A stretch of DNA of 64,000 bases from positions 310,001 to 374,000 of the forward strand of contig NZ_QLTT01000005.1 in NCBI RefSeq assembly GCF_003269295.1, in the 5' to 3' direction. The notes beneath the pieces were generated by a model. That model made no database searches and was not told where the DNA came from. It saw only the letters and a program-made list of their open reading frames with translations. The position numbers and the translations under genes are program-made. Origin of the DNA: Lentzea atacamensis (GTDB taxonomy: Bacteria; Actinomycetota; Actinomycetes; Mycobacteriales; Pseudonocardiaceae). Shown here in pieces: positions 9,301 through 58,325 of the stretch. How positions within the stretch are numbered: position 1 is the stretch's first letter; every line of letters starts with the position of its first letter.

Positions 9301-9517
9301 CGAACAGGAAGCGCTCACGGCCAGGAGCGGGCCGGACGTTCACCACCCGCTTGTCGCTGACGGTGATCTTGTCCCCGGTCAGCAGTGTCACGGTCGCACC
9401 GTTGGCACCGACCGGCGTGATCACGACCGGATCGGCGGCCGCGCTCGGTGCCGCCGACACCACCGTCCCCGCCAGCACGAGTGCCAGCAGCCCCGGCAAG
9501 GCTCGTCTGCTTCGCAT
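6329..9517 (-). CDS. Secreted S8 (subtilisin-like) serine peptidase, large form
   Basis: 1062 residues. ATG 9517 is chosen because GGAG precedes it and a Sec signal peptide follows (MRSRRALPGLLALVLAG, cleavage near residue 28). Residues 40-180 are a prodomain-like region. The catalytic domain has Asp207 (VAVLDTGID), His239 (HGHGTHVAS), oxyanion Asn331 (IAAGN) and Ser406 (GTSMAAPH). About 550 C-terminal residues form beta-rich domains ending in RAYALK. Two paralogues at 20163 and 23478 share the layout and tail. The enzyme should act outside the cell on proteins. It is divergent from a sigma-factor gene with which it shares a symmetric promoter region. Confidence 0.93.
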   Translation of the reverse strand: MRSRRALPGLLALVLAGTVVSAAPSAAADPVVITPVGANGATVTLLTGDKITVSDKRVVNVRPAPGRERFLFESYTDEHGDLNVVPEDAQALLQKGVLDPRLFNVTDLIAAGFDDASADRLPLIVDHAGPAPSTAAAQVTRELPAMGATAVSVARSAAFWPVAQKADRVWLDGRVRVALEHSVPQIGAPAAWQAGHTGAGTKVAVLDTGIDATPPDLAGAVVDARDFTGGDNPDDRHGHGTHVASIITSEHTRYRGVAPDTRLLNGKVLGDDGVGHVSTIIEGMQWAAAQGADVVNMSLSGEPSDGTDPLSQAVNRLTAETGTLFVIAAGNQGFVGLPGTADAALTVGAVDRSDNLAEFSGRGPRFGDGAVKPDITAPGVDITAARAAHSVNGQPGQSHLPLTGTSMAAPHVAGAAAILAGQHPGWTAEQLKSTLMGSATAKAGLTVHQQGAGRVDVGKAVGATTSAAPASLNFGEVRWPYQDTAAIKKTLTYTNHGTAPATFSLSADVKHQDGSPAPQGMFTITPATVTVPAGGQATVTVTADVAVNGPSGDVSGVITATAGTTAVRTPIAVHREVESYDVDLTAIAHDGSPSTDYRYRFVPIGRVDVYKAFATGPTTVRLPAGEYTYTGFVRDAATGRKAYMAEPTFTVGKKTSLVFDAREAMPVGITVDEPSSRDVRTQLDFHRTTNTEYGFTGESVLAFGEELQRLTVRPSSTRHDAFTFTTQTTKAKWNGRSFDGSPYLYHLKHTDHAVPRTPRWHDRTGDLAKVRSEHASTTPGSTGVRDLVAIPLPGTLTEYYTPDVPWAFRTFTEVVGDQWLGEHVQVKPVVYPRGKTTTVRWNRGVFGPSLFDGEVGSTAFRGLDRLHFQISPLADQDPGRNSSQAMRGRTELLRDGKVIGENDQAVYGVFDVGPERAAYTARTTADRSTYAGLTTRYEAEWTFTSQRGERPLEATLLPLLGVRYAPDLDDRNAAPAGRFFRIPMSVQRNGSATPGQISKPTVDVSCDDGKTWAPALVQRDRTQWTVTVRHPAGAKFVSLRSSVHDAEGNKQSQTIIRAYALK

Positions 9518-9563
9518 CAAACATCTCCACAAAGTTGTTGTCGTGGTTCGACTCGCGGACCAA

Positions 9564-9620
9564 GACACGCCATGTCCTCCTGACCGGGTTGCAACCTCCC
9601 GGTGAGGACATGGCGTGACT
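9564..9620. promoter_or_regulatory. Symmetric back-to-back promoter region of S8 peptidase and sigma factor
   Basis: A 14-bp perfect inverted repeat (9566-9579, CACGCCATGTCCTC; 9604-9617) flanks inner ACCGGG/CCCGGT arms and a central palindrome GGTTGCAACC (9587-9596). Read either way this gives GCAACC, a 17-bp spacer and CGTG: GCAACC 9591-9596 with CGTGAC 9614-9619 toward the sigma gene, and GCAACC 9592-9587 with CGTGTC 9569-9564 toward the peptidase. Two opposed ECF-type promoters sharing one -35 centre is the likely reading, probably recognised by the sigma factor encoded next to it. Confidence 0.6.
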
Positions 9621-9626
9621 AACCGC

Positions 9627-10145
9627 GTGAATGCCGGTGGGGAACGGACAAAGAACGAACGCGAGGACCGGTTCGCGGCGTACTTCGCCGCCAAATCGGG
9701 CGCGATGCGCGCGACCGCGTACCTGCTGTGCGGCGACTGGCACCGCGCGGAGGACCTCGTCCAGACCGCGTTCGTGAAGCTGTACCTGGTGTGGCACCGG
9801 GTCGGCCACGAGGAAAAGCTGGACTGCTACACGCGCCAGGTTCTGGTGCGGACCTTCCTGGACGAGAAGAGACGCGGGTTCTTCCGGCGCGAGCGGCCGA
9901 CCTCCGAGATCGGGGACCGCCCGCTGTCCGAACCGGACGACCACGTCGAGAACCGCGTTGTGCTGGTCGAGGCGCTCGCCGCGGTCGCGCCGCGGCAGAG
10001 GGCCGCTCTGGTGCTGCGGATCTGGGAGGACCTGTCCGTCGAGGACACCGCGAAGGCGATGGGCTGCAGCACGGGGACGGTCAAGAGCCAGCTGGCCCGC
10101 GGCCTCGCGACGATGCGCTCCCTCGTGCCGGTCAGCAGTGCGTGA
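9627..10145 (+). CDS. SigE-family ECF RNA polymerase sigma factor
   Basis: 172 residues from GTG 9627 (176 from GTG 9615). Region sigma2 spans about 10-75 (AAYFAAKSGAMRATAYLLCG, EDLVQTAFVKLY) and sigma4 about 110-165 (LAAVAPRQRAALVLRIW, then EDTAKAMGCSTGTVKSQLAR, an HTH). Such factors direct polymerase to stress or secretion regulons. If CGTGAC at 9614-9619 is the -10, transcription would begin near 9626, making GTG 9627 a leaderless start. GTG 9615 would then be inside the promoter. The downstream membrane protein is the likely cognate anti-sigma partner. Confidence 0.85.
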   Translation: MNAGGERTKNEREDRFAAYFAAKSGAMRATAYLLCGDWHRAEDLVQTAFVKLYLVWHRVGHEEKLDCYTRQVLVRTFLDEKRRGFFRRERPTSEIGDRPLSEPDDHVENRVVLVEALAAVAPRQRAALVLRIWEDLSVEDTAKAMGCSTGTVKSQLARGLATMRSLVPVSSA

Positions 10146-10188
10146 CCTCGTGAAACAGCTGGGTAGTGCGGAACAAGGAGCCCAAGAG

Positions 10189-11022
10189 ATGGATGAGCGT
10201 GAACTGCGGACAGCGATGGACGACGCCGTGGCGGTGGCGCCGCCGCCGATGACGGAAGGGCCCGTGCTGATGGCCGGTCGGCAAGCCCTCAAACGACGTC
10301 GTGCGCTGCGGGCGAGCACCGCGAGCGCGGCGGTGGTCGCGATCACGGCGGTCGGGGTGGCCGTGCTCGCTTCAGGCCAGGGCCACAACGGTTTCGCTCC
10401 GGTCGGCGCGAAGCCGTCGGCAGTGCCGGACACCGTTGCGTCGTCACCGACCGCACGTCCCGACGCGACGGCGACCTCCGGCCCGCACCACGACCGCGCC
10501 GCGGCACTGGCGGCCGCGCTGAGCGACCTGGCACCGGACGGGTTCGGGACACCGGACGACCTCAAGGGAACCGGCGACTTCGCCAACCGGCCGTTGAAGA
10601 GCCACAAGGCCATGTCGGCCGGCACGGTGAACGGCACCGAGCTGTGGCAGTACGCCGCGGGCACCCCGCTGACCAAGGGCGCGGCTGTCGGAGAGCTGGT
10701 CGCCACGGTTCACTCGCCGGGGTCGGCGACGACCGGGGAAGGCTGCGGGCTGAAGCCGACGGCGTGGGACTCCTCCCTCGCTCACTGCACCGAGGTGAAC
10801 GTCAGCGGCAAGACGGTCGCCGTCGCGTCCGTCACCTACCCGGCCGTGGACGGCCTGCCGCCCTCTCAGTGGGCCGGCTATCGCCACGCCGACGGCACCG
10901 TGGTGTTCGTCATGCAGTCCACCGGAATGGCCCGATCGGGCCGCCCCGCCCTGGCCGTGATGCCGATGACCGATCAGCAGCTGGCCGCCCTGGCCGTCGA
11001 TCCGCGCCTCAGTCCCCGGTGA
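10189..11022 (+). CDS. Membrane-anchored partner of SigE-family sigma factor (putative anti-sigma)
   Basis: 277 residues from ATG 10189, with AAGGAG 8 bp upstream. Residues 1-40 are cytoplasmic (MDERELRTAMDDAVAVAPPP), one transmembrane helix lies near 42-63 (AAVVAITAVGVAVL), and the rest is extracytoplasmic. That part has a Pro/Ala/Thr linker and a C-terminal domain with HADGTVVFVM and MTDQQLAALAVDPRL. The start lies 43 bp past the sigma stop, so they are co-transcribed. No zinc-binding HxxxCxxC anti-sigma motif is seen; the anti-sigma role rests on position and topology. A fragment of a related pair survives at 3936-4293. Confidence 0.6.
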   Translation: MDERELRTAMDDAVAVAPPPMTEGPVLMAGRQALKRRRALRASTASAAVVAITAVGVAVLASGQGHNGFAPVGAKPSAVPDTVASSPTARPDATATSGPHHDRAAALAAALSDLAPDGFGTPDDLKGTGDFANRPLKSHKAMSAGTVNGTELWQYAAGTPLTKGAAVGELVATVHSPGSATTGEGCGLKPTAWDSSLAHCTEVNVSGKTVAVASVTYPAVDGLPPSQWAGYRHADGTVVFVMQSTGMARSGRPALAVMPMTDQQLAALAVDPRLSPR

Positions 11023-11215
11023 GGAAGGCCACCGGCACCGCCGATCTGCGGCCCTCCCGCATGACGACGCGTTCGGAGCGGTAGCACCCTCCACTTCGGA
11101 CAGACCATCGCTGTGGCTCGCCGACACCACGGCGCCCGGCTGCTGGTGTCGTGAGTGCGCGGGAGCGGAGGAGGACCGCTTGTCTAGGCTGAGCCCTCGA
11201 AACCGAGGAGTGCTC

Positions 11216-11827
11216 ATGAAGCTCTACGCAGTCGCCGCCGTCGTCGACTCGGTCATGGCGGCCTTGCGCGGCACCGGAAGCGTGCGCAAGGTCACGAAAA
11301 CCGCGCTGATGCCCGCCCTCGCGCTGACCAGCCCGCCACGCGACCCTGGCATGACGGTGGGCCTGGCCGGATCCTGGGCCGGCGACGTGGCACTGCTCGG
11401 CGACTCCGACCGGGCGTTCCGAACCGGACTGTTCAGCTTCCTCGTGGCCCACGTCGGCTACACGGCCGCGCTGGCCCGCCGATCACAGCCCGGCTCACGC
11501 GGGGCGGTCCTGCCGATCGTCGCGGCCTCGGCTGCCGGGGCCGCGGTGTTCGCCCGCGCGGCCGGGCCGATGGGGCGACCGGTCGGCCTGTACGCACTGA
11601 CGCTCGGAACGATGGTCGCCGCCGCGTCGACGGTCCGCGGGCGTGGTGCGCGACGAGTTTTCGGTGGTGCGGCACTGTTCGCGGTGTCGGACGCGCTGCT
11701 CGGGGCGAGCCGGTTCGTCCTCGATGGACGGGCGGCGCGGGTCGCCTCGGCCGGTGTGATGCCCACCTACGCGGCCGCGCAGTGGCTGATCCACACCGGG
11801 TTCGAGCAGGAGGGCGACCCCGCCTGA
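11216..11827 (+). CDS. YhhN family membrane protein (lysoplasmalogenase-like)
   Basis: 203 residues, 7-8 hydrophobic helices. The family pattern is seen in KTALMPALALTSP, the polar GDVALLGD segment and FLVAHVGYTAALA. YhhN/TMEM86 proteins hydrolyse or bind lyso-ether lipids in the membrane; activity in actinobacteria is not established. ATG 11216 has CGAGGAG 5 bp upstream; an in-frame TTG at 11180 has none. It lies upstream of the tRNA gene. Confidence 0.8.
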   Translation: MKLYAVAAVVDSVMAALRGTGSVRKVTKTALMPALALTSPPRDPGMTVGLAGSWAGDVALLGDSDRAFRTGLFSFLVAHVGYTAALARRSQPGSRGAVLPIVAASAAGAAVFARAAGPMGRPVGLYALTLGTMVAAASTVRGRGARRVFGGAALFAVSDALLGASRFVLDGRAARVASAGVMPTYAAAQWLIHTGFEQEGDPA

Positions 11828-11895
11828 AAACCCGTTGGATGCCCTGTGCTAACGTTCTTGGTGTCGGAAAGAGCAAGGCTCCGGCACACAAACAA

Positions 11896-11969
11896 GCGCC
11901 GCTAGCTCAGTTGGTTAGAGCAGCTGACTCTTAATCAGCGGGTCCGGGGTTCGAGTCCCTGGCGGCGTA
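11896..11969 (+). tRNA. tRNA-Lys, anticodon CTT
   Basis: A full cloverleaf of 74 nt can be folded by eye: acceptor GCGCCGC / GCGGCGT (G1-U72 closing pair), TA at 8-9, a D arm GCTC-AGTTGGTTA-GAGC, an anticodon arm GCTGA-CTCTTAA-TCAGC with anticodon CTT, variable GGGTC, a T arm with TTCGAGT loop, and discriminator A. CCA is not encoded. It reads AAG codons. Its 3' half is duplicated at 3747-3790. Confidence 0.96.
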
Positions 11970-11979
11970 CTCCGGAAAA

Positions 11980-12010
11980 GCAGGTAGAGATTCGTCTCTG
12001 CCTGCTTTTT
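11980..12010 (+). terminator. Rho-independent terminator of tRNA-Lys
   Basis: A 10-bp stem GCAGGTAGAG / CTCTGCCTGC (one T-G pair), loop ATTCGT, then five T, beginning 10 bp after the tRNA. Confidence 0.85.
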
Positions 12011-12311
12011 CGCATTTCCGCCGCTTCCCGTCATCCCGAGGACGACGTCAACACCCGGCAAGCCTGGGCGGTGAGGTCGCCGAGCAAGCGGACGGCCTCT
12101 GCGAGTTCGGGCCCGATCTCCAGCTGGATCCACAGGTCCGACGGCGCGTCCCTCGTGTGGCTCGGCCGCGCCGCGGACGGCTCCCCCAGCCGCTTCGTCC
12201 TCGACTTCCAGGTGCCCGAGCTGGCCACCGCGGAACCGGGCTGACCTCGCGGTCAACGCGGTTCAGACGGGCGTCGAGCACCCGGCGGACCTCGATGGAC
12301 AAGGGAGAGCG
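12011..12311. other. Intergenic stretch with possible gene-end remnants
   Basis: No convincing gene. The plus frame ending at TGA 12242-12244 reads SDGASLVWLGRAADGSPSRF and on to LATAEPG, like the end of a protein without a start. The minus frame 12031-12228 (65 codons) ends ELAEAVRLLGDLTAQACRVL, a helix-like tail, but has no ribosome site. They overlap, so at most one is real. Either could be a scar beside the tRNA integration site. Confidence 0.35.
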
Positions 12312-12340
12312 TTGACTCTCACAGACAGATGGTCGACAAT
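12312..12340 (+). promoter_or_regulatory. Sigma70-type promoter with overlapping GTCGAC operator for the catabolic operon
   Basis: TTGACT (12312-12317), a 17-bp spacer and GACAAT (12335-12340) form a housekeeping-type promoter 39 bp before the first gene. The -10 is overlapped by GGTCGACAAT (12331-12340), which is almost the same as TGTCGACTAT (20099-20108) before the GntR gene. A repressor bound there would block the -10. Confidence 0.55.
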
Positions 12341-12378
12341 CGACAACCGACACGCCAGCACCAGCACTGGAGGACACC

Positions 12379-13059
12379 GTGGAGTTCGCGAGCAAGCCGA
12401 AGTTCGTCACGTTCGACATGAACGGGACGCTGATCCGCTTCCGCATCAACGACGTGATCCGTCAGGTCCTGGGCGACCGGCTCCCCGCCGAGCTCGCGGA
12501 CGAGTTCCTGCGGACGGGCAACGAGTTCCGGTACGACGAGACCCTGGGCGACTGGAAGCCGTTCCACCAGATCGTCGCCAACTCGCTGGAGCGCACCATG
12601 CGTCACTTCGGCCTGGAGTACCGCGCCGGTGACGGTGAGGCGGTGTACGAGCAGATCCCCACGTTCGGCCCCTACCCCGGTGTCACCGAGGCACTGCGGC
12701 GCCTGGCCGAGGAGTACCCGCTGGTCATCGTGACGAACACCGACGACGCCCACGCACCGAGCCTCGTGGAGAACCTCCAGGCTCCGTTCGAGGTCGTCAT
12801 CACCGCCGAGCAGATGCGCGCCTACAAGCCGCGGCTGCACGCGTTCCAGTACACGCTGGACAAGCTCGGCGCGACGCCCGACGAGATCGTGTGGGTCTCA
12901 GCGAGCCCGAAGTACGACCTCCGCTCCGCGACCGTCATGGGCTTCGAGAACAAGGTGTACATGGACCGCGGCTTCGAGCCGGACCACCCGTGGCTCGGCT
13001 GCAAGCGGATCACCGACATCGCCGACCTCCCCGTCCTCTTCGGTCTGCCGCGGCCTTGA
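12379..13059 (+). CDS. HAD superfamily hydrolase, haloacid-dehalogenase type II-like
   Basis: 226 residues. Motif I is FDMNGTL (nucleophile Asp; the usual second Asp is Asn here, as in type II dehalogenases where this site varies), motif II VTNTDDA, motif III KPRLHAF and motif IV SASPKYDLRSATVMG. These fit the L-2-haloacid dehalogenase branch, whose members hydrolyse a halide or another group from a small 2-substituted acid. GTG 12379 follows GGAGGA. It is the first gene of the operon, so the substrate is probably the imported compound or one of its breakdown products rather than a haloacid. Confidence 0.8.
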   Translation: MEFASKPKFVTFDMNGTLIRFRINDVIRQVLGDRLPAELADEFLRTGNEFRYDETLGDWKPFHQIVANSLERTMRHFGLEYRAGDGEAVYEQIPTFGPYPGVTEALRRLAEEYPLVIVTNTDDAHAPSLVENLQAPFEVVITAEQMRAYKPRLHAFQYTLDKLGATPDEIVWVSASPKYDLRSATVMGFENKVYMDRGFEPDHPWLGCKRITDIADLPVLFGLPRP

Positions 13060-13096
13060 GGCGCGGACGACCGATCGCAACGGCAGGAGGACAGCG

Positions 13097-14371
13097 ATGA
13101 AGTTCACCCCGTACTGGCTGGACACCGCTCCGCAGGGCCCTGACCGGTCGCGCACCGACATCGGCGGCCACGTCGACGTCGCGATCGTGGGAGCCGGCCT
13201 CACCGGCCTGTCAGCGGCACTGCACCTGGCCCGCAAGGGCGCCAACGTGCACGTCTTCGAGAAGGAGACGGTGGGCTGGGGTGCGTCGGGCCGCAACGGC
13301 GGGATGGCCACGACCGGTCTGTCGATCGGCTTCCGCGACGCGGTCAGCCGCTACGGGCTGGACATCGCGAAGGCGTACCTCCTGGCCTACCACAACGCGG
13401 TCGACACCGTGGAGAAGGTCATCAGCGACGAGGGCATCGACTGCGACTTCGCCCGCACCGGCAAGCTGAACCTCGCGTCGAGGCCCGCTCACCTCGACGG
13501 CATGCGCAAGACCGCCGAGATGCTGTCCGGGCTTGGTTTCGAGCACCGCCTGGTGGGCAGGAACGAACTCCGCGCGGAGATCGGCTCCGACAAGTTCCAC
13601 GGTGCGATGGTCGACGCCCGGAGTGCGGGGCTGCACGTCGGCAAGTTCACCAAGGGACTCGCCGAGGCGGCCGTGCGGGCGGGCGCCACGATCCACGAGA
13701 AGGCGCCGGTCGAGCAGTTCCGCGGGCTGGGCGGCACGAAGCACGAGCTGGTCACCGCGCGGGGCACCGTCCGTGCCGACCAGGTCCTCGTCGCCACCAG
13801 CGGCTACACCGGGCGGCCGTTCCGCTGGCAGCAGGTCAGGATCGCGCCCGTCGGCAGCTTCATCATCGTGACCGAGCCGCTGGGCGAGGACGCCTGCGAC
13901 GAGCTGCTGCCGACCCGGCGGATGGCGTCGACTTCCAAGAACCTGTTGAACTACTTCAGGATCACGCCGGACCACCGGCTGCTGTTCGGTGGTCGCGCCC
14001 GGTTCACCATGTCGAACCCGCAGTCGGACGAGAAGTGCGGGCGCATCCTGCAGCGGGGGATGACCGAGTTCTTCCCACAGCTCGCGAACGCGCGGGTGGA
14101 CTACTGCTGGGGCGGACTGGTCGACATGAGCATGGACCGCATGGTCCACGCCGGCGAGCGCGACGGACTGTTCTACTCGCTCGGCTACTCCGGCCACGGT
14201 GTCCAGATGGCCACGCACATGGGCAAGCAGATGGCCGAGTACCTGAACGGCACCGTGACCGCGAACCCGTGGCGTGACTTGAAGTTCAACCGGATCCCCG
14301 GCCACTTCGGCCCGCCCTGGTTCCTGCCTTTCGCGGGTGCCTTCTACAAGTTCAAGGATCTCGTGAAGTAG
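13097..14371 (+). CDS. FAD-dependent amine/amino-acid oxidoreductase (DAO family)
   Basis: 424 residues. The N-terminal Rossmann motif is VAIVGAGLTGLSAALHLA with the acidic ribose-binding E in HVFEKE, followed by GWGASGRNGGM (the FAD-binding loop of DadA, PuuB and sarcosine-oxidase relatives). The C-terminus has GLFYSLGYSGHGVQMATHMG. Closest in form are gamma-glutamylputrescine oxidases. It oxidises a C-N bond to an imine with FADH2 formation. AGGAGGAC lies 7 bp before ATG 13097. The operon also encodes RidA, which removes reactive imines or enamines, so the product is likely such an intermediate. Confidence 0.88.
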   Translation: MKFTPYWLDTAPQGPDRSRTDIGGHVDVAIVGAGLTGLSAALHLARKGANVHVFEKETVGWGASGRNGGMATTGLSIGFRDAVSRYGLDIAKAYLLAYHNAVDTVEKVISDEGIDCDFARTGKLNLASRPAHLDGMRKTAEMLSGLGFEHRLVGRNELRAEIGSDKFHGAMVDARSAGLHVGKFTKGLAEAAVRAGATIHEKAPVEQFRGLGGTKHELVTARGTVRADQVLVATSGYTGRPFRWQQVRIAPVGSFIIVTEPLGEDACDELLPTRRMASTSKNLLNYFRITPDHRLLFGGRARFTMSNPQSDEKCGRILQRGMTEFFPQLANARVDYCWGGLVDMSMDRMVHAGERDGLFYSLGYSGHGVQMATHMGKQMAEYLNGTVTANPWRDLKFNRIPGHFGPPWFLPFAGAFYKFKDLVK

Positions 14372-14427
14372 GCGTTCCGCCACGCCTCAAACCTGCGCAC
14401 CTTCCCAGTTGATGAAGGACGGCCACC

Positions 14428-15357
14428 ATGCGAGCCTCAACACCCTTGCGTGCCACGATCATCGCGACATCCCTGGCCTTCGCACTCGTCGCGTGCGGGT
14501 CGGTCGAAGCAACCCAGCCCGCCGGCTCCGACCAGGTCGAGCACACCGACGACATCTCGGTGGGCGTGCAGCCGGACCCGGCGGTGGTGAAGCTGCTGCC
14601 GGAAGCCGTGAAGGCCAAGGGCACGATCTCGGTGGCGATGGACCTGTCGAGTCCGCCCACCACGTTCATGGCGACGGACAACAAGACCCCGATCGGATTC
14701 AACCCGGACATGGCGCGGCTGATCGCGGCCAAGCTCGGGGTGAAGCTGCAGATCGACAACGTCAAGTTCGACACCATCATCCCCGGTCTGCAGGGCGGGC
14801 GGTTCGACTTCACCGCGACCACCATGGGCGCCACCGCGGAGCGGCTGAAGGTGCTCGACATGATCAACTACTTCCAGAACGGCACCGGGGTCGTCGTACC
14901 TCGCGGGAACCCGCAGAAGCTGACCGTCCACGACCTGTGCGGGCGCCGCGTCGGCGTGCAGTCCGGTACCACGGCGGAAATCAAGTGGCTGCCACAGCTG
15001 AGCGAGAAGGACTGCACGAGCCAGGGCAAGCAGGCCATCACCGGAGTGACCCTGCCGAGCGTCAACGACTCGCTGACCCAGCTCGCCTCCAAGCGCCTCG
15101 ACGCGGTGATGTACGACTTCACCTCGCTGTCGTGGGCGGCCAAGCGGCAGCCGAACGTGCTGGAGGTCCTGCCGGAGCGGGTGGTCTCCGCGAAGGTGAA
15201 CGTCGCACTGCCCAAGGGTTCCGCGCTGACCCCGGCCATCCAGGCGGCCGTGCAGGCCATCATCGACAGTCCCAAGTACGTCGAAGCCCTTGATCGCTGG
15301 GGCTTCCAGGGCCTCGGCATCGAGACCGCGGCGATGGCCGTTCCGCTGGGGCAGTGA
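14428..15357 (+). CDS. ABC transporter substrate-binding lipoprotein, polar amino-acid type
   Basis: 309 residues. The signal peptide ends in the lipobox ALVAC with Cys23 as lipidation site. The mature protein is a SBP_bac_3 domain: [17 protein letters not shown], then [20 protein letters not shown], then [15 protein letters not shown]. This clan binds polar amino acids, opines or related amines outside the membrane. The stop overlaps the permease start (TGATG), so translation is coupled. Confidence 0.9.
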
Positions 15358-50657: not shown

Positions 50658-52067
50658 GTGGGCCAGGTGACCACGTTTCCACGGGTGCCCGCGGACCTGT
50701 TCCGCTTCACCACAGCCGAGCACGCGGAGCTGCACACCGCAGTGCTGCGCGCATTCGGCGTGGCGAACGAGCGCCTGGAGACGTCACTGACCCTCGACGA
50801 CGTGCAGCTACGACTGAGGGACGTCGGCTGGTCCGAGCAGGTGACGGACGAAGACCTGACCAAGTCCCTCGCAGCTCTACGGCAGTGGGGCCTGATCGAA
50901 ACCGCTCAGCACCGGTACGGGCTGACGAAACACGGCGAAGCCGCGTACGCCGGCATCCAGCACGCCCTCGAGACCCTGACCAGCAGCGGCGCGCTGCAGA
51001 CCGCCGTGCTCGACGCGATCGCGGACCGGCTCGACGAGCTGAGCAAGCCGATGGACGACCGCCGCACCTTCACGGCGCTGCAGGAACTGGAAGGCCACGT
51101 GAAAGCGCTGCAGACGGGCACCACGAGGTTCAACAGCGAGCTGCAGCGGCTCTTGAAGGACGACCACGACCTCGCCACGTTCCAGGACGTCAAGCGCACC
51201 ACGATCACCTACCTGCGCGAATTCATCGCCGACCTGGACGCGCGCAAGCAGCAGATCCGCGAGAAGATCGACAACCTCGATCCCGTCAAACTGCACGAAA
51301 ACGCGCGAAACGGCGCCGACCTGTACCAGGACGACAACTGGCTGCAGAACCGGGCGAAAGCCTGGGACAGCCTCAAAGCCTGGTTCCACCACACACCTTC
51401 GAAGGCCGACGAGCTGCAGGACGTGGCGCGGAAGGCGATCGTGCAGCTCCTCCGCGTCCTCGACCGGATCAGTGAGCAGCGGAAGCGCCCGACCAACACC
51501 GCGGCCGACTTCAAGGCGCTGGCCAGGTGGTTCGCCAGAACCACCACCGAGGATGAGGCGCACGAGCTGTTCAACGCCGCGTTCGGGCTGTGGTCCGCGC
51601 GGCACGCCCACCTCGCGCACGCCGACGGTGAGCTGATCCCCAGCGCCGAGCCGTGGCACAACACGCCTCCGGTGAAGCTGTCGCCGCAGCTGCGGACGAC
51701 CGGCAAGCAGGAGCACATCGGCAGCACCGGCAAGATTCGCAACGTCGACGAGGTCCGCCGCAACCGCCGCCGGCAAGCGGAGAAGGAACGCGCGGAGCTC
51801 GAGCACGCGTGGCGCCAGATCCAGACCGACGGGCCGATCCGGATCTCCACCCTGACCAACCTCGACCACGACACCTTCCACCGGCTCATCGACCTGGTCG
51901 GGCGGGCGCTCGGCAGCGATCCGGACAGCACCGGCACGCGGACGGCCGGCACGACCGACGGGCGGATGCAGATCAACCTGCGCAACGCTCGTGGCTGGGC
52001 CACCATCACCACCCAGAAGGGCACGTTGAGCGGGCCCGACTACGTGATCGACGTGCAGAGCCGATGA
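50658..52067 (+). CDS. jetA: Wadjet type II subunit JetA (DUF2397, TIGR02677 family)
   Basis: 469 residues, all soluble. The N-terminal winged-helix region (HTAVLRAFGVANERLETSLT, LRQWGLIETAQHRYGLTKHG) and the central coiled part (ALQELEGHVKALQTGTTRFN, YLREFIADLDARKQQIREKI) match DUF2397, the kleisin-like subunit of type II Wadjet. Wadjet complexes recognise small circular DNA by loop extrusion and cut it. GTG 50658 follows AAGGAAG. Its stop overlaps the jetB start (ATGA), and the three genes form one operon. Confidence 0.88.
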   Translation: MGQVTTFPRVPADLFRFTTAEHAELHTAVLRAFGVANERLETSLTLDDVQLRLRDVGWSEQVTDEDLTKSLAALRQWGLIETAQHRYGLTKHGEAAYAGIQHALETLTSSGALQTAVLDAIADRLDELSKPMDDRRTFTALQELEGHVKALQTGTTRFNSELQRLLKDDHDLATFQDVKRTTITYLREFIADLDARKQQIREKIDNLDPVKLHENARNGADLYQDDNWLQNRAKAWDSLKAWFHHTPSKADELQDVARKAIVQLLRVLDRISEQRKRPTNTAADFKALARWFARTTTEDEAHELFNAAFGLWSARHAHLAHADGELIPSAEPWHNTPPVKLSPQLRTTGKQEHIGSTGKIRNVDEVRRNRRRQAEKERAELEHAWRQIQTDGPIRISTLTNLDHDTFHRLIDLVGRALGSDPDSTGTRTAGTTDGRMQINLRNARGWATITTQKGTLSGPDYVIDVQSR

Positions 52068-53149
52068 GCAGGACGGGGAACCAGCTCGCCCGGCTGGAGA
52101 GCGAGGAGGTGGCACGCGGTGTCCGGCTGCTGCTCGCTCGTCCGTTGCTGGCCGCCGTGCAGGATCCGGACGGGTTCGACCTCATCAGAAGGCGCCGCGA
52201 GCCGATCGTGAAGTGGTTCGACTACTACTGCGGCTGGCGTGTGCACGTTGAGCCACGCGCCGGCTATGCGCGGCTGTTCAAGACGACACAGCGGCCCGAT
52301 CGCACGCGTCCTGCGCCGAACTTCGACCGGCGGCGGTACATGCTCCTGTGCCTGACGTGCGCGGAGCTGCTGAGCGCACCCACCACGACAACCGAAGCGT
52401 TGGCAGACAAGGTGAAACAAGCCGTCAAGCTCGAAGAGCTGCCGTCCTTCGACCCGGACAGGCGCGCCGATCGGTCCGCGTTCGACGACGTGCTGGACTT
52501 CCTCGGGCAACTCGGGGCCGTCGAGATCAACGAGACGCACCTCCGCGCGGATCCGGTGATCATCACGCGGCTGCTCGCGGCGCCGGTCTCGCCGTCCATT
52601 GTGGACAGAGTCGAGGACCTCACGCACGAGAACCGGTACGAAAACGCTCATCGCAGCCTGTGGCAGCGGCACTCCACCATGCGCAGACTGATCGACGATC
52701 CCGTGGTGTACAAGGAAGATCTGACCGCAGGTCAGCTCGCGTTCCTCAGCTCACCCACCGGGCGCAAGATCGTCCAGACGGGTATCGGGCTCGCCGGGTG
52801 CACGTTGGAGGAACGTGCCGAGGGTTTTCTCGTGGTTGACGCCGACGCGGTCGCCACGGACACGAGGTTTCCGGACGACGACAGCCACGCGAAGGTCGCC
52901 GCGTTGTTGTTGCTCGACCGGTTGGCACGAGGTCCCGCACGGTTCGACGACCTGGTCGAAGAAGCACGCGAGCTGCTCACGAAGTTCCGCAACTGGGCCA
53001 AGGCCTACCAGTCGGACGGTGGCGCGGGCAGGCTCGCGGCGGACGGGGTCGCGTTGCTGGAGGCGTTCGGGCTGGCGCGCAACGAGAACGGCACCGTTCG
53101 GCGGCTGCCCGCGGCGGCCAGGTACGCGGTGGAGGAGCTGCATGACTGA
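52064..53149 (+). CDS. jetB: Wadjet type II subunit JetB (DUF2398, TIGR02678 family)
   Basis: 361 residues. The N-terminus LARLESEEVARGVRLLLARP is the family hallmark, followed by WFDYYCGWRVHVEPRAGYAR, LTCAELLSAPTTTTEALADK and ENAHRSLWQRHSTMRRLIDD. JetB is a winged-helix KITE-like subunit that bridges JetA and the SMC-like JetC. ATG 52064 overlaps the jetA stop by 4 bp, and its own end overlaps jetC by 8 bp, so the stoichiometry is likely set by translational coupling. Confidence 0.88.
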   Translation: MSRTGNQLARLESEEVARGVRLLLARPLLAAVQDPDGFDLIRRRREPIVKWFDYYCGWRVHVEPRAGYARLFKTTQRPDRTRPAPNFDRRRYMLLCLTCAELLSAPTTTTEALADKVKQAVKLEELPSFDPDRRADRSAFDDVLDFLGQLGAVEINETHLRADPVIITRLLAAPVSPSIVDRVEDLTHENRYENAHRSLWQRHSTMRRLIDDPVVYKEDLTAGQLAFLSSPTGRKIVQTGIGLAGCTLEERAEGFLVVDADAVATDTRFPDDDSHAKVAALLLLDRLARGPARFDDLVEEARELLTKFRNWAKAYQSDGGAGRLAADGVALLEAFGLARNENGTVRRLPAAARYAVEELHD

Positions 53150-56100
53150 CCGGTGGCAACCCAGTCGCGCCGGGATCATCAACGTCTGGCGCTACTACGA
53201 CGAGATCTTCACCTTCCACCAGGGCAGACTGCTGCTCAGGGGGCCCAACGGCACGGGCAAGTCGAAGGCGCTCGAGCTGCTGCTGCCGTACCTCTTCGAC
53301 GCGAACCTGCGCCCGCACCGGCTGTCGACGTTCGGCAGCGCGGACCGCACCATGCACTGGAACCTCATGGGCGAGGGCAACCAGGGCAGCACCCGCGTCG
53401 GCTACGTGTGGCTGGAGTTCCAGCACGGCGACGAGTGGTTCACGTGCGGCGCGCGGTTGCAGGCGACCACGAACACGTCCAACGTCACCGCCACGTACTT
53501 CACGACGTCCTTGCGCGTCGGCGACCTGGCGCTGGTGAACGAGGCCGGGCGGCCGTTGACCAAGACGGATCTCGTTGCGGCGATTGGCGAGCACGGCGTT
53601 GTGCACGCCTCACCGGCCGACTACCGGCACACGGTGCGGACGACGTTGTTCCCCGGCGTCACCGAGCAACGGTACGACTCGCTGATCACCGCGCTGCTGC
53701 AGCTGCGGACACCGAAGCTGTCCGAGCGGCTCGACCCGAGCGTGCTGTCCTCATTGCTGTCCAGGGCACTTCCGCCGCTGGACCAGTCGGATCTCACCGA
53801 GATCGCCGAGGGTTTCGAACGGCTCGACCGCCAGCGCGAGGAGCTGCGCAGGCTCGACGAGGAGATCATCACCGCCGAGCGTCTCGCGGAGATCCAGCGC
53901 ACCTACGCGCAACGCGTGCTGGGCGCGGCAGCACACGCGTTGTCGTCTTCTTCTGAGCGACTCGAAGACCTGACACGCGCCGCGCGGATGAGCGAACGGC
54001 GTTATCAGCGGCAGGTCACCCTGGCCGACGAGGCCTTCGAGCAACTGGCGGCGTTGGGGCGTGAGGCGAACGCGGTCGACGCGGAGATCGCCGGCATCTC
54101 CGACCTGCCCGCCTACCAGGAGGGCAAGCAGCTCGACCTGTTGCGGCAACAGCATTCCGCCGCGGTCCAACGTGCCGCCGAAGCGGCTGCACACGCCGCG
54201 AAACTGCGTGCGCGTGCCGTTGCGGACGAGGAACACGCCGCTCAGGCCAAGTCGGACGCGGCGGCACGCGCTGACGACGTGCGGCATTCGGCTCTCGAAG
54301 CCCGGGAAGCCGCCGAGCGCGCGGGTATGTCGTCGGTGTTCGAGGAGATCGACGCGACCACTGTAGACACAAAAACAGGCGCGCGGGCGAGCCGGCAGCT
54401 GCTCAGCGACGCCGTGGACGCCCGTTCCGCCGAGATCAGCGCGATCATGCGTGCCGTTGCCGTTCACGAGAGGGCCATCGACGCACGGGACGCCGCACGC
54501 CAACGGCTCGACGAAACGCACGAAGAGCTCGAACTGGCCACGGATGCCGAAGCGGCGGCGCAGCAGGCGTTCGAGCAAGCGTTTGCGAAGTTCGGGGCCG
54601 ACTTCGAGACGTGGGCGCACGGCTGCTCCGAGCTGCGCGTATCCGAGCACGGCGAGGTCTCCGAAGCCGCTGCCCTCGCGCGCGAGGAGTTCAGCGCGAT
54701 CGAGGCACGGCTGCACGAAACGCGCACGGCGTTGAACGGCCAACTCGCGCAGTACAACGCCATCCGCGAGAAGCTCGCCAATCAGGTCGACGTACCACCG
54801 CCCGCGCCGTACACCCGCGACGCCGCGTACCGCTCTTCTGCCGTGGGTGCTCCTCTGTGGCGCCTGGTGAACTTCCGTCCCGGCACGCCACCCGACGTGT
54901 GCGCCGCCGTCGAAGCCGCCCTGGAAGCCTCGGGACTGCTGGACGCGTGGCTCACGCCGGGCAACTCGTTCGGGCTCTCCGACCAGGACCGCTTCGCCGA
55001 ACCACTGCTGGCGGCACCCGCTCCCGGCACCACACTGCTCGAAGTACTGGTCACCGACGACGACCGCGCCCATCGGTTCTTGGAAGGCATCGCGTTCGGT
55101 GAAACCGCCACGGGTCACACGGCGGCCATCGGCGCGGACGGGACCTGGCGCCTGGCCAACGTCCACGGCAGCTGGACCAAGCCCTTCCCCACCTACATCG
55201 GCGCCGACTCCCGCCGACGCGCTCGGGCGGGCCGGATCGCCGAGCTCACCGGCCTGATCGAGCAGCTCGCCACCGACCTGGCCGGTGTCGACGCGGCGCT
55301 GTCGCAGATCGCCGTCCGCCGCGCGACCCTGGCCGGCGAGCTCGCCAGGCAGCCGTCGACCGACTCGGTCGAGATCGCGGAGGAACAACGCACCAAGGCG
55401 CAGTTGCGTTGCGCGGCAAGGAAAGACGCCGTCGCTTCCGCGACGCGCCAGGTGTCCGAGGCCGAGACCGCCGTGGCAGAGACGCTGCGGATGGTCAACG
55501 GCGAGGTCTCCGTGAACCCGCACGCTGTCGCCGCATTCCGCACCGCGGGCCACCGCTGGCTGGACGACCGTCACGACGCCTTCGCCGCGGAAGCCGCTGC
55601 TGCCGAAGCGATGAACCGGTCGTCGGTGAGCAACGCCCTGGCCGACGAAGCCGAGGAAGCCGCCTCCGCCCGCCAGCAGGAGGCAGCCGACGTCGCCATC
55701 ACCCTGGAGACCGTCGAACGTTCCGCGGGCTCCGAGTTCCATGCCCTCGACCAGCAGCTCATCACGTTGCGCGCCAAGGCCCTCGAACTGGCGGAGCAGC
55801 GCGAAACGTTGCAGGACAAGCAGACCTCTCTAGCGCGGACCCTCGGTACGTTGGAGGAGAAGCGCAAGGTCGACACATCGCGTGCCACAGAAGCCGCGGC
55901 CGTGCGGGACGCGGCCGAGGCCCGCTACCGCCACCTCACCAGTGGCCACCTGCCGGCCGACGCCGGCGACCTGCCAGAGGGCCCGGTGGACGCGCGGCTG
56001 ATCCGCGACGCCGAGACCCGCCTGGGTCTTGCCGTGCACCAGGCCCAACAACAACTGGCGGGCCGCATCGACCTGTCACTGGAACCCGACGACGATGTCG

Positions 56101-56939
56101 CTGTCCTGAGCGCAACCCTCGATGGCGCGCGCATGGGCGCACACGCGCTGCTGGTTGCGTTGCAGGCCGAACGCGACCGCATGCGCACACACATCACCGA
56201 CGCCGAACGCGACCTCTTCGACCAAACCCTCACCGGCGACACCCGAAGGCACATCGCCCAGCGCATCCAGGGCGCCGCCGAACTCGTCGACACGATGAAC
56301 CAACGCTTGGAGCGCGTCCAAACCGCGTCCGGCATCCGCGTGCAGCTCGTCTGGCAGGTGGATCCCCAACTGCCGCCCGGCACCCGCGAGGCCCGCGACC
56401 TGCTGCTGCGCTCAGACCTCGACGCCGAGGAACGCGCTGTGCTGCACCAGTTCTTCCGCGAGCGAGTGGAAGAGGCCCGCGCACACGACACCGCAACGGG
56501 CTGGGAACAACAACTCGCCCAGGTCCTGGACTACACGACGTGGCACCAGTTCGTCGTGAAGGTGGACCGCGGCGACGGCTGGGTCCCTGTCACGAAACGC
56601 GTCCACGGCGCGTTGTCCGGCGGTGAAAAGGCCATCGTGCTGCACCTGCCGTTGTTCGCCGCGGCGGCCGCGCACTACCAGGCGACGCCCACCGCACCTC
56701 GCCTGATCCTGCTGGACGAGGTCTTCGTCGGTGTCGACGCCACGAACCGCGGCCAGTTGCTGGAGCTGCTGGTCGCGTTCGATCTCGACCTCGTGCTCAC
56801 GTCGGACCACGAGTGGTGCGACTACCGGGAGCTGACCGGCATCGCGATCCACCAGCTCACCACGGGCACCGATGGCGACGACGCGGTGACGACGGTCCGC
56901 TTCACGTGGGACGGCCACAGCCTCAAGGCCGATGACTGA
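53142..56939 (+). CDS. jetC: Wadjet type II SMC-like ATPase JetC (TIGR02680 family)
   Basis: 1265 residues. Walker A is at 34-42 (GPNGTGKSKA). Two long coiled coils rich in Ala/Glu/Arg follow (about 240-580 and 780-1080) around a hinge-like segment (VGAPLWRLVNFRPGTPPDVC, near 640-760). The ABC signature LSGGEK is at 1158-1163 and Walker B ILLDEVFVGVD near 1189-1199. This is the motor that extrudes DNA in Wadjet. All ATPase motifs are intact. The end overlaps the convergent DUF6998 gene by 17 bp. No jetD follows. Confidence 0.9.
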   Translation: MTDRWQPSRAGIINVWRYYDEIFTFHQGRLLLRGPNGTGKSKALELLLPYLFDANLRPHRLSTFGSADRTMHWNLMGEGNQGSTRVGYVWLEFQHGDEWFTCGARLQATTNTSNVTATYFTTSLRVGDLALVNEAGRPLTKTDLVAAIGEHGVVHASPADYRHTVRTTLFPGVTEQRYDSLITALLQLRTPKLSERLDPSVLSSLLSRALPPLDQSDLTEIAEGFERLDRQREELRRLDEEIITAERLAEIQRTYAQRVLGAAAHALSSSSERLEDLTRAARMSERRYQRQVTLADEAFEQLAALGREANAVDAEIAGISDLPAYQEGKQLDLLRQQHSAAVQRAAEAAAHAAKLRARAVADEEHAAQAKSDAAARADDVRHSALEAREAAERAGMSSVFEEIDATTVDTKTGARASRQLLSDAVDARSAEISAIMRAVAVHERAIDARDAARQRLDETHEELELATDAEAAAQQAFEQAFAKFGADFETWAHGCSELRVSEHGEVSEAAALAREEFSAIEARLHETRTALNGQLAQYNAIREKLANQVDVPPPAPYTRDAAYRSSAVGAPLWRLVNFRPGTPPDVCAAVEAALEASGLLDAWLTPGNSFGLSDQDRFAEPLLAAPAPGTTLLEVLVTDDDRAHRFLEGIAFGETATGHTAAIGADGTWRLANVHGSWTKPFPTYIGADSRRRARAGRIAELTGLIEQLATDLAGVDAALSQIAVRRATLAGELARQPSTDSVEIAEEQRTKAQLRCAARKDAVASATRQVSEAETAVAETLRMVNGEVSVNPHAVAAFRTAGHRWLDDRHDAFAAEAAAAEAMNRSSVSNALADEAEEAASARQQEAADVAITLETVERSAGSEFHALDQQLITLRAKALELAEQRETLQDKQTSLARTLGTLEEKRKVDTSRATEAAAVRDAAEARYRHLTSGHLPADAGDLPEGPVDARLIRDAETRLGLAVHQAQQQLAGRIDLSLEPDDDVAVLSATLDGARMGAHALLVALQAERDRMRTHITDAERDLFDQTLTGDTRRHIAQRIQGAAELVDTMNQRLERVQTASGIRVQLVWQVDPQLPPGTREARDLLLRSDLDAEERAVLHQFFRERVEEARAHDTATGWEQQLAQVLDYTTWHQFVVKVDRGDGWVPVTKRVHGALSGGEKAIVLHLPLFAAAAAHYQATPTAPRLILLDEVFVGVDATNRGQLLELLVAFDLDLVLTSDHEWCDYRELTGIAIHQLTTGTDGDDAVTTVRFTWDGHSLKADD

Positions 56940-57444
56940 ACAACGCCAGGAGCTCCCGCTGCTCCAGGGTGAGGACGAAGGCCGGGTTGTGCCGCGGATA
57001 GACCTCCGCGGCCTCCCACACGTGCCCGCGCACGCTGGACGCCACACCGATCTTGCGTCCACGCGCCCGAAGATCGGCCACGACGGTCGCGGCGTCGAAC
57101 AGGTACACGGCGTCGATGGCCAACGGCCGCACCGCGCCGGGTGAGCTCTCCGCCGGCGCCTTCGGACCGGTCAGCACGAGGTAGCAGTCCGGCCCGTCCT
57201 CGCGCAGGTCCAGCAGGTTGTCCCGCTTCAGGTACCACCTGATGTTCACGGTCCGGCCGTCCGCGAACCGGCCGTCCACGCCCTTGGCCGTGGTTTGCTG
57301 CTCCAGCTCGATCCCGAAGATCCGGGCCGCGATCCAGTCGCCGAGGTGGCCGGGGAGCGCGGGGCGCCGGATGCACGCCGACAGCGCGGCGTCGATGCGG
57401 TTGCGCTCCCGGACCAGCTCGGCGACCTGTACCACTTCGTTCAC
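56923..57444 (-). CDS. DUF6998-like protein
   Basis: 173 residues from GTG 57444 (GGGAGG 6 bp upstream; GTGA overlap with the upstream exonuclease gene). The pattern RNRIDAALSACIRRPALPGH, LGDWIAARIFGIELEQQTTA, VDGRFADGRTVNIRWYLKRD, then LLDLREDGPDCYLVLTG resembles DUF6998 proteins. The D-(x)n-VNIRWYLK stretch recalls the core of PD-(D/E)xK nucleases, but the acidic pair is not clear. Function unknown. Its 3' end overlaps jetC on the other strand. Confidence 0.6.
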   Translation of the reverse strand: MNEVVQVAELVRERNRIDAALSACIRRPALPGHLGDWIAARIFGIELEQQTTAKGVDGRFADGRTVNIRWYLKRDNLLDLREDGPDCYLVLTGPKAPAESSPGAVRPLAIDAVYLFDAATVVADLRARGRKIGVASSVRGHVWEAAEVYPRHNPAFVLTLEQRELLALFSHRP

Positions 57445-58325
57445 GCGCGCCCTCCCGTGAGCTCACCGAGCAGTCCCGCGAACAGGTCCTCGGAGACGAT
57501 CGGAATGCCGTAGCTGCGAGCCTTGTCCGCCTTGCCCGACAAGGAATCCGGGTCCGCCGCGATCACCAGCGCCGTCTTCTTGGTGACCCCGCCCTTCACC
57601 GACGGACCGGCGGACAACGCCCGGCTCTCCCACACCTCGCGCGGCTCACGCATCTCACCGGTCAAGACCACGAGGTCCCCCAGCCGTGCAGTGCGGAGTG
57701 GGCGGTACCCATCGGCACGCCGGCCGGCGAGCAGCACGCGGCGAGCGAACGGAACGAAGCGCCGAGGTACCGGCCCGCGAGCTTCATCGTGCACAGCCCC
57801 GTCCGAGCAGCACTTCCTGGCGAAGCTGGTGCGGCTGCTGCCTCCCCGGGAGTTGGTCGATCGGCATCTCTCCGTGGAGGAGCAGGAGGACCTGCTCGAC
57901 GTCGCTCGTGCGCTCGGCCTGGGGCTGCTGGAGGTTCTGGGCCTGCACCGCGAGTACCTCACCGCGCTGGGCGAGGCCGCTCGGGAGGACGGGGTGGTGA
58001 CGGCCGACGAGGAGGCCGATCTGCGGCTGGTCGCGTCGCTGCTCGGGGTGGACGTGGTGCCGCGGCGCTCCGTCCGGCTGTCGAGCCGTGCGGCGAGCTC
58101 ACCGGCGATGCCCGCGAAGTCGGGGGCGCGACGGGCTTCCGCGGCGCTGATGCCGTGCACGTGCTGGGCGCCCAGGTCGCGTCGCGGGTTGACCAGCGGG
58201 CACCACTCGTCGGTGCGGCGGCCGGGCACGTCCACGTGGACCACGGCGACCTCGATCACCCGATGGTGGTGGCCCGGTGAGAGTCCGGTGGTTTCCACGT
58301 CGACGACCGCATAGCCGTTGCTCAT
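57441..58325 (-). pseudogene. DEDD exonuclease-TerB-BRCT protein, internally rearranged
   Basis: The minus strand begins with an intact ExoI motif (YAVVDVETTGLSPGHHHRVI, HVHGISAAEARRAPDFAGIA) up to LAARLDS near 58080. Positions 57806-58069 then carry, on the plus strand, HFLAKLVRLLPPRELVDRHL, EEQEDLLDVARALGLGLLEV and EADLRLVASLLGVDVV. That is the TerB-like helical domain normally found between exonuclease and BRCT. The minus strand resumes with GLCTMKLAGRYLGASFRSLA and GTAHSALH (57800-57680), then, in another frame, the BRCT end GDLVVLTGEMREPREVWESR to 57441. The ExoII region (VAHNxxFD) is missing. The gene cannot make the normal enzyme. Confidence 0.75.

Follow-up and report, generated by a model that had tools for sequence, protein, structure and literature searches.

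Type II Wadjet systems (JetABCD; TIGR02677–TIGR02680), among them nvJET of Neobacillus vireti (PDB 9qe0/9qe1), share with type I Wadjet, MksBEFG of Corynebacterium glutamicum, and EptABCD of Mycobacterium smegmatis a motor composed of a structural maintenance of chromosomes (SMC) ATPase, a kleisin, and a KITE (kleisin-interacting tandem winged-helix element) subunit, whose cutting part is a nuclease (JetD or MksG). In published work, plasmid cutting is portrayed as a process in which JetABC extrudes and JetD is then activated (PMC10586767, PMC12647877), type I and type II JetABC were purified as complexes apart from JetD (PMC12647877), and deletion of mksG in C. glutamicum impaired plasmid control like deletion of mksB or mksF (PMC10123090). 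Since JetABC extrudes and JetD cuts, removing JetD leaves the motor. Descent of the MukBEF and MksBEF condensins from Wadjet by nuclease loss was proposed in PMC10586767, and a precedent concerns the Pseudomonas aeruginosa chromosome (PMC7485682). That loss presumably dates far back and is therefore difficult to investigate. The present analysis concerns a type II jetABC operon without jetD, designated jetA2B2C2, in a 64,000-nucleotide stretch (hereafter, the window; C5:310001–374000) within a 632-kb contig of the Lentzea atacamensis genome (9.3 Mb, 32 contigs). With moderate confidence, we regard it as a type II Wadjet motor that was disarmed and would now act as a non-cutting, loop-extruding, condensin-like complex, in parallel to MksBEF. 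No report of a type II jetABC operon without jetD was found in a literature search.

The genes jetA, jetB, and jetC are all intact (50658–56939), and all score above the curated cut-offs. The operon comprises the following features:

50658..52067, plus strand: jetA2, DUF2397 kleisin subunit, 469 aa (TIGR02677, 348 bits, cut-off 166; PF09660, 366 bits; PADLOC JetA2, 660 bits)
50901..50921, plus strand: reduced wing in the N-terminal winged helix of JetA (from the alignment; strands 80–83 and 86–89 in the model)
52064..53149, plus strand: jetB2, DUF2398 KITE-type subunit, 361 aa (TIGR02678, 232 bits, cut-off 125; PF09661, 262 bits; PADLOC JetB2)
53142..56939, plus strand: jetC2, SMC-like ATPase, 1265 aa (TIGR02680, 957 bits, cut-off 463; PADLOC JetC2, 1211 bits)
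53241..53264, plus strand: JetC Walker A, GPNGTGKS (motif pattern)
56613..56627, plus strand: JetC ABC signature, LSGGE (motif pattern)
56703..56723, plus strand: JetC Walker B, LILLDEV (motif pattern)

The genes are translationally coupled, with an overlap of 4 bp between jetA and jetB (52064–52067) and of 8 bp between jetB and jetC (53142–53149). An earlier note on this DNA had described the genes as intact, the overlaps as given here, and the ATPase motifs of JetC as complete, all of which was confirmed by the profiles, the coordinates, and the motif patterns. In its JetA, JetB, and JetC profile matches, its gene order, and its coupling, the operon resembles type II Wadjet, and the window JetA and JetC match the chains of nvJET 9qe0 by sequence (E 1.6e-74 for the JetC chain). 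For JetC, PADLOC JetC2 was the top-scoring family, far above JetC1, and the closest relatives originate from Lentzea (82–92% identity). The JetA model, which is of low confidence (predicted local distance difference test, pLDDT, 70; predicted template modelling score, pTM, 0.39), had N. vireti Wadjet-II JetA (9qe0) as its best fold match (E 1.7e-14, template modelling (TM) score 0.30). Unlike type II Wadjet, the operon contains no JetD (DUF3323 plus DUF2399/TIGR02679), and the three window proteins are shorter than their D-bearing relatives. The locus is a nuclease-less variant of type II Wadjet, which lacks one of the features that define the defense system (JetD) and matches condensins in architecture, while a condensin function is so far only proposed. 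As in MksBEF-type condensins, SMC, kleisin, and KITE genes occur without a nuclease gene, and the role proposed here is the same; unlike in those condensins, a chromosomal role in Lentzea is only suggested, by constraint and flank conservation. MksBEF itself presumably belongs to another branch of the family than the Lentzea complex.

The JetD profile matched none of the open reading frames of at least 60 aa in the window. A tblastn match at 56707–57015 (4e-11), considered as a jetD remnant after jetC, was rejected, because it is the 3′ end of jetC itself read in another frame; the next-best JetD match in the window reached only E 0.002 and lies inside a LuxR gene. In agreement with the earlier observation, jetD is absent from the window, and no remnant is left behind jetC. 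The assembly error envisaged in the earlier note as a possible cause was not borne out and is very unlikely, since the same layout recurs in relatives and the contig is long.

The window-type jetA2B2C2 was detected in 23 of the 24 Lentzea genomes (G193 being the exception), with jetC2 forming a single open frame at 22 of these 23 loci. In the JetC tree, in which 77 of 78 rows were placed, the 22 window-type rows form one clade with a Shimodaira–Hasegawa-like approximate likelihood ratio (SH-aLRT) support of 100. Its sister clade consists of Actinophytocola xanthii and two Saccharopolyspora members, which carry jetD directly after jetC (split into two frames at locus L025). Based on this placement, the loss of the window lineage's own jetD is old and preceded the diversification of Lentzea, and the remaining genes appear to have persisted as a stable cluster on the chromosome.

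A canonical operon, A1B1C1D1, is located directly upstream of jetA2 and is complete at four of the 23 loci (G007, G123, G182, and G230). At three loci (G213, G286, and G290) D1 is truncated or frameshifted, with both TOPRIM motifs kept, at two (G204 and G272) only fragments of it are left, and at the remaining 14, the window among them, there is no trace of A1B1C1D1. In other genera, JetD proteins of the D1 class follow canonical JetC, and D1 is therefore not A2B2C2's own D. The decay of the neighboring A1B1C1D1 across Lentzea, while A2B2C2 stays, supports the proposed disarmed motor. In the tandem arrangement A1B1C1D1–A2B2C2 (L193, L194, L199, and L201, i.e., Lentzea G123, G007, G182, and G230, respectively), the first operon is canonical and the second lacks D. 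What precedes jetA2 varies among the Lentzea loci (A1B1C1D1, large P-loop proteins, or other genes), with no constant partner. P-loop proteins of approximately 620–650 residues occur at five of the 23 loci (one in L169 and L197; two in L168, L190, and L191); presumably, they resemble a helicase with a nuclease-like N-terminus, and genes upstream of jetA2 at several other Lentzea loci may be ESX-like.

The best 80 of 113 matches were considered, corresponding to 77 loci (21 window-type and 56 other; L022 and L023 come from the same strain and do not differ in sequence). Within these best 80 matches, JetD was present at 47 of the 56 non-window-type loci, being located after jetC at 28 and before jetA at 19, i.e., the rule assumed in the earlier note that jetD follows jetC in type II loci applies to the former group only. 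At the other nine of the 56, no JetD was detected; these are seven Amycolatopsis loci, Streptomyces cavernae L066, and L072, which counts as D-less only as far as its contig reaches, about 0.6 kb past jetC. The seven D-less Amycolatopsis form one clade in the JetC tree (SH-aLRT 100). A DUF2399 search in the genomes of these nine loci gave no match in six (five Amycolatopsis and S. cavernae) and one DUF2399 each, outside the locus, in the other two D-less Amycolatopsis and in the genome of L072.

Furthermore, a wider sample of 297 genomes out of the larger family was analyzed, with at most 12 first-look candidates scored per genome. Of the sampled family genomes outside Lentzea, 191 matched TIGR02680 strongly (E up to 1e-80), and 46 of these 191 gave no DUF2399 match. 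The follow-up comprised 17 loci, 16 from 15 of these 46 genomes and one from G022, which has a DUF2399, and JetA, JetB, and JetC were matched by profile at all 17. Eight represented the Amycolatopsis-like D-less form, two of them being identical to loci of the first set; the two sets overlap (for example, L248 = L035 and L261 = L039). At L259 (G260), two weak JetD pieces upstream of jetA (4476–4954; profile positions 10–44 and 378–424 of 427) are probably the relic of a recent deletion. Within a class resembling the jet cluster on contig C6 of the window genome (see below), three follow-up loci were without D, and four (including G022) had a D match ending at 112–236 of 427 and thus short of TOPRIM; L260 gave a weak D match only. 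A 104-row tree requires no fewer than five switches between having and lacking the nuclease, the deepest joins being long, unreliable branches. Repeated disarming in relatives suggests that the machine was recruited to a task for which cutting is not required. According to a broader claim, actinobacterial type II systems were disarmed repeatedly and independently, whether jetD was deleted, the TOPRIM glutamate was lost, or the TOPRIM domain disappeared altogether, and the leftover JetABC serves as a conserved chromosomal SMC complex, so that condensins would have evolved from an immune system more than once and in a traceable way. This claim seems to us evenly poised.

No shared replacement gene was found beside all of the D-less loci. 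Gene calls around the seven Amycolatopsis jetABC operons revealed a small conserved upstream gene in all seven, plus another upstream gene; the former presumably encodes a lipoprotein and the latter, as we assume, a methionine sulfoxide reductase-like protein. The family search downstream of six of these seven loci identified a Streptomyces antibiotic regulatory protein (SARP)-type regulator at five and a DUF222/HNH-domain protein at one (L035), and it found no family downstream of S. cavernae L066.

With respect to sequence change, all 31 JetC rows without JetD (22 window-type, seven Amycolatopsis, L066, and L072) retain the Walker A, signature, and Walker B motifs. Ratios of nonsynonymous to synonymous substitution rates (dN/dS) for JetA, JetB, and JetC were determined from trimmed codon alignments, leaving out pairs with dS <0.05 or >1.5, and replace the values from untrimmed frames. 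For JetC, values of 0.184 in Lentzea and 0.171 in the D-less Amycolatopsis, indicating purifying selection, were the lowest of 11 clades; the nine D-bearing clades ranged between 0.215 and 0.349, four of the nine being based on no more than three pairs. The dN/dS of JetA relative to that of JetC has shifted to 1.61 in Lentzea and 0.99 in the D-less Amycolatopsis, compared to 0.43–0.70 in the nine D-bearing clades. Substitutions at columns conserved in D-bearing loci were then compared between JetA plus JetB and JetC (p values uncorrected; L052 in no group). An excess in JetA plus JetB was detected for Lentzea (odds 3.11, p 0.0016), the D-less Amycolatopsis (odds 3.10, p 0.046), and S. cavernae (odds 2.47, p 0.001), and it was not significant in 14 of the 15 D-bearing groups. 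When the conservation threshold was relaxed, the three D-less groups again stood out (odds 1.6–2.2, p 0.006–0.037), as did the D-bearing L067 (1.9, p 0.012). Moreover, a conserved 16-residue stretch of D-bearing JetA, located in the wing of its N-terminal winged helix, is missing from Lentzea JetA, and Lentzea JetB lacks 7-, 13-, and 8-residue stretches of its D-bearing relatives. Published type I data place nuclease contacts on the kleisin (MksG–MksF; PMC10123090) and on the JetB N-terminus, among other sites (PMC10586767). Provided that these contacts can be carried over by analogy to JetA and JetB of type II, the substitution pattern would fit release from JetD binding, with the motor under tightened constraint.

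The surroundings of the loci differ in their conservation. Flank sharing was taken as the mean proportion of neighboring genes, up to 5 kb away, for which other members of the clade have a homologue on the same side; for Lentzea, 20 of the 21 window-type loci were used. It reached 0.56 downstream of the Lentzea loci and 0.46 upstream and 0.49 downstream of the D-less Amycolatopsis loci. In eight D-bearing clades, it amounted to 0.00–0.24 upstream and, in seven of them, to 0.00–0.06 downstream. D-less loci keep at least one flank, in Lentzea the downstream one, unlike most D-bearing clades, which keep neither. JetC relatives were present on 27 of 72,556 plasmid records, all with less than 60% identity.

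According to the proposed mechanism, the JetA kleisin, the JetB KITE subunit, and the JetC SMC ATPase would most likely assemble as a JetABC complex, which would power DNA loop extrusion with ATP, like other JetABC and MukBEF/MksBEF complexes, with no cutting step. A condensin-like or otherwise DNA-organizing complex would in this way arise from a plasmid-defense machine, along the route proposed for MksBEF. A non-cutting, condensin-like role had been one of several options in the earlier note and is the one favored by the comparative evidence, the function itself being what we infer; as a whole, the interpretation given there is partly supported. The nuclease-loss step proposed for the condensins seems to be repeated here, several times and recently enough for sister loci with D to be found, along with truncated D genes, what is probably the relic of a deletion, and changes of selection that can be measured. 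The question of how an immune DNA-cutting machine becomes a chromosome organizer is thus directly testable with pairs of close relatives, and a jetABC operon devoid of jetD calls for a test before it is classed as anti-plasmid defense.

Several results weigh against such a conversion. The upstream flanks of the Lentzea loci are variable (sharing of 0.17), and D-bearing Actinomadura loci also share downstream flanks (0.47). Distances of JetC2 correlate only weakly with those of the C6 JetD (rho 0.32, Mantel p 0.12; 10 of 24 Lentzea genomes), so that strict vertical inheritance is not established by this comparison, and for JetA2 the corresponding rho is 0.02 (10 Lentzea genomes). The D-bearing L067 shows the same JetA/JetB excess at conserved columns (odds 4.26, p 0.0004). 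The wing is retained in JetA of the D-less Amycolatopsis, so that the two lineages did not lose the same segments, and JetC2 lacks 14- and 19-residue stretches, so the shortening is not limited to JetA and JetB. In G272, jetC2 is split into two frames, and at L035 the DUF222/HNH-domain protein (12380–13669, plus strand) is encoded downstream of a D-less jetC. Finally, the window genome does hold other JetD-type proteins; a third JetD_C match, on C5, is marginal (21.6 bits).

The only DUF2399 protein of the window genome is encoded on contig C6 within another type II-like jet cluster (G000:C6:44903–52941; locus L174, 6760–14945), in which its gene is preceded by a second JetA, a JetB-like gene, and JetC; JetA and the DUF2399 protein of this cluster are present in all 24 Lentzea genomes. 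In the C6 JetD of the window genome, the TOPRIM Glu is replaced by Arg and the second Asp by Thr, and among the 20 of 24 Lentzea copies read, the Glu position is occupied by Arg in 19 and by His in G007. In C6-class JetD from other genera of the family, Glu is replaced by Ser, Ala, Thr, or Arg in some and kept in others, and some other members of the family have a TOPRIM-less D or no D in this class. Two further four-gene clusters, on C15 and C10, hold JetD_C-type proteins with both acidic TOPRIM motifs kept (ENR...GDIDADG and ENK...CDLDADG); the C15 cluster is a type I JetABCD, and in the C10 cluster PADLOC recognizes JetD alone, weakly (44 bits). JetA2B2C2 might accordingly cut plasmids with a JetD borrowed from another jet cluster, the candidate donors being the neighboring D1 in some species and, here, the C15, C10, and degenerate C6 proteins. 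The intact motifs of the C15 and C10 proteins and of D1 in the four species with the complete upstream operon, as well as in the three truncated or frameshifted copies, speak for this. However, D1 is missing at 14 of the 23 loci and truncated, frameshifted, or fragmentary at five more, the C6 protein has lost the TOPRIM Glu, JetA2 and JetB2 show loss of constraint, and six of the nine genomes with other D-less loci gave no DUF2399 match (JetD_C-type proteins were not searched for there). The suggestion of a JetD encoded elsewhere is literally true, but each candidate has its own partner genes, and use in trans, which has no positive support, is quite unlikely in our view; for a genome with four jet-like clusters, a jetD gene elsewhere, as sought by the genome-wide search proposed in the earlier note, is too simple a refuter. 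Somewhat less improbable, yet still unlikely, is plasmid restriction without a nuclease, in which JetA2B2C2 would recognize circular DNA and compact or silence it instead of cutting, along the lines proposed for Smc5/6 acting on extrachromosomal DNA. The motor is intact, and PMC10586767 attributes the sensing of size and shape to JetABC and describes compaction of circular DNA by Smc5/6; the conserved downstream flanks, the near-universal presence in the genus, and the tightened JetC constraint point more to housekeeping than to an arms race.

A replacement nuclease was also sought beside jetC, whose 3′ end enters a convergent gene (by 17 bp), an overlap that the earlier note had correctly reported:

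56923..57444, minus strand: DUF6998-like protein, 173 aa, convergent to jetC (PF22522, 25.5 bits, below its 27-bit cut-off)

As judged from its model (pLDDT, 73; pTM, 0.70), this protein has a PvuII/Eco15I-like PD-(D/E)XK fold, with Eco15I, NhoI, and PvuII as the top Foldseek matches (Eco15I N-terminal domain, 1.6e-4; PvuII TM-score up to 0.59 by target length, E about 0.01). To this extent, the guess of a nuclease-like protein in the earlier note was sound. The D-x9-(D/E)-x-K site was placed by the PvuII spacing, not by superposition. It reads D57, N67, and R69 in the window protein, which deviates from the catalytic D...(D/E)-x-K. That this protein replaces JetD had been suggested on positional grounds, and its nuclease fold, its adjacency to jetC at 19 of the 23 Lentzea loci, and an intact D-D-K site in the early-branching G266 are in line with the suggestion. 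On the other hand, G266 is the only one of 18 full-length Lentzea copies with an intact site, the other 17 being degenerate, the gene is missing at four of the 23 loci and truncated at one, it is convergent and not part of the operon, no other gene among the eight examined on untrimmed frames reaches its median dN/dS (0.39), and phmmer found no relative at the Amycolatopsis D-less loci. The protein was rejected as a JetD replacement, a function that is very improbable, and is probably a neighbor rather than part of the JetABC complex. Even less credit is given to the idea that jetA2B2C2 is a decaying defense operon on its way out: D is gone, jetC2 is split in G272, and all three proteins lack stretches seen in D-bearing relatives, but jetC2 is open at the other 22 loci, dN/dS lies between 0.18 and 0.30, the ATPase motifs are complete in all rows without JetD, and it is the neighboring complete operon that decays instead.

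The C10 cluster (L214; G000:C10:220000–236000, 7902–14743, minus strand) encodes a 1022-aa protein with weak SMC-like matches and two more gene products without a PADLOC family, and possibly represents an undescribed Wadjet type. Next to the DUF6998-like gene of the window, a DEDDh exonuclease/BRCT gene (57441–58325, minus strand) encodes 294 aa, compared to an open frame of 396 residues in L201; its ends match L201, its middle gives no in-frame match, and a part of it matches on the opposite strand, so that the gene looks rearranged.

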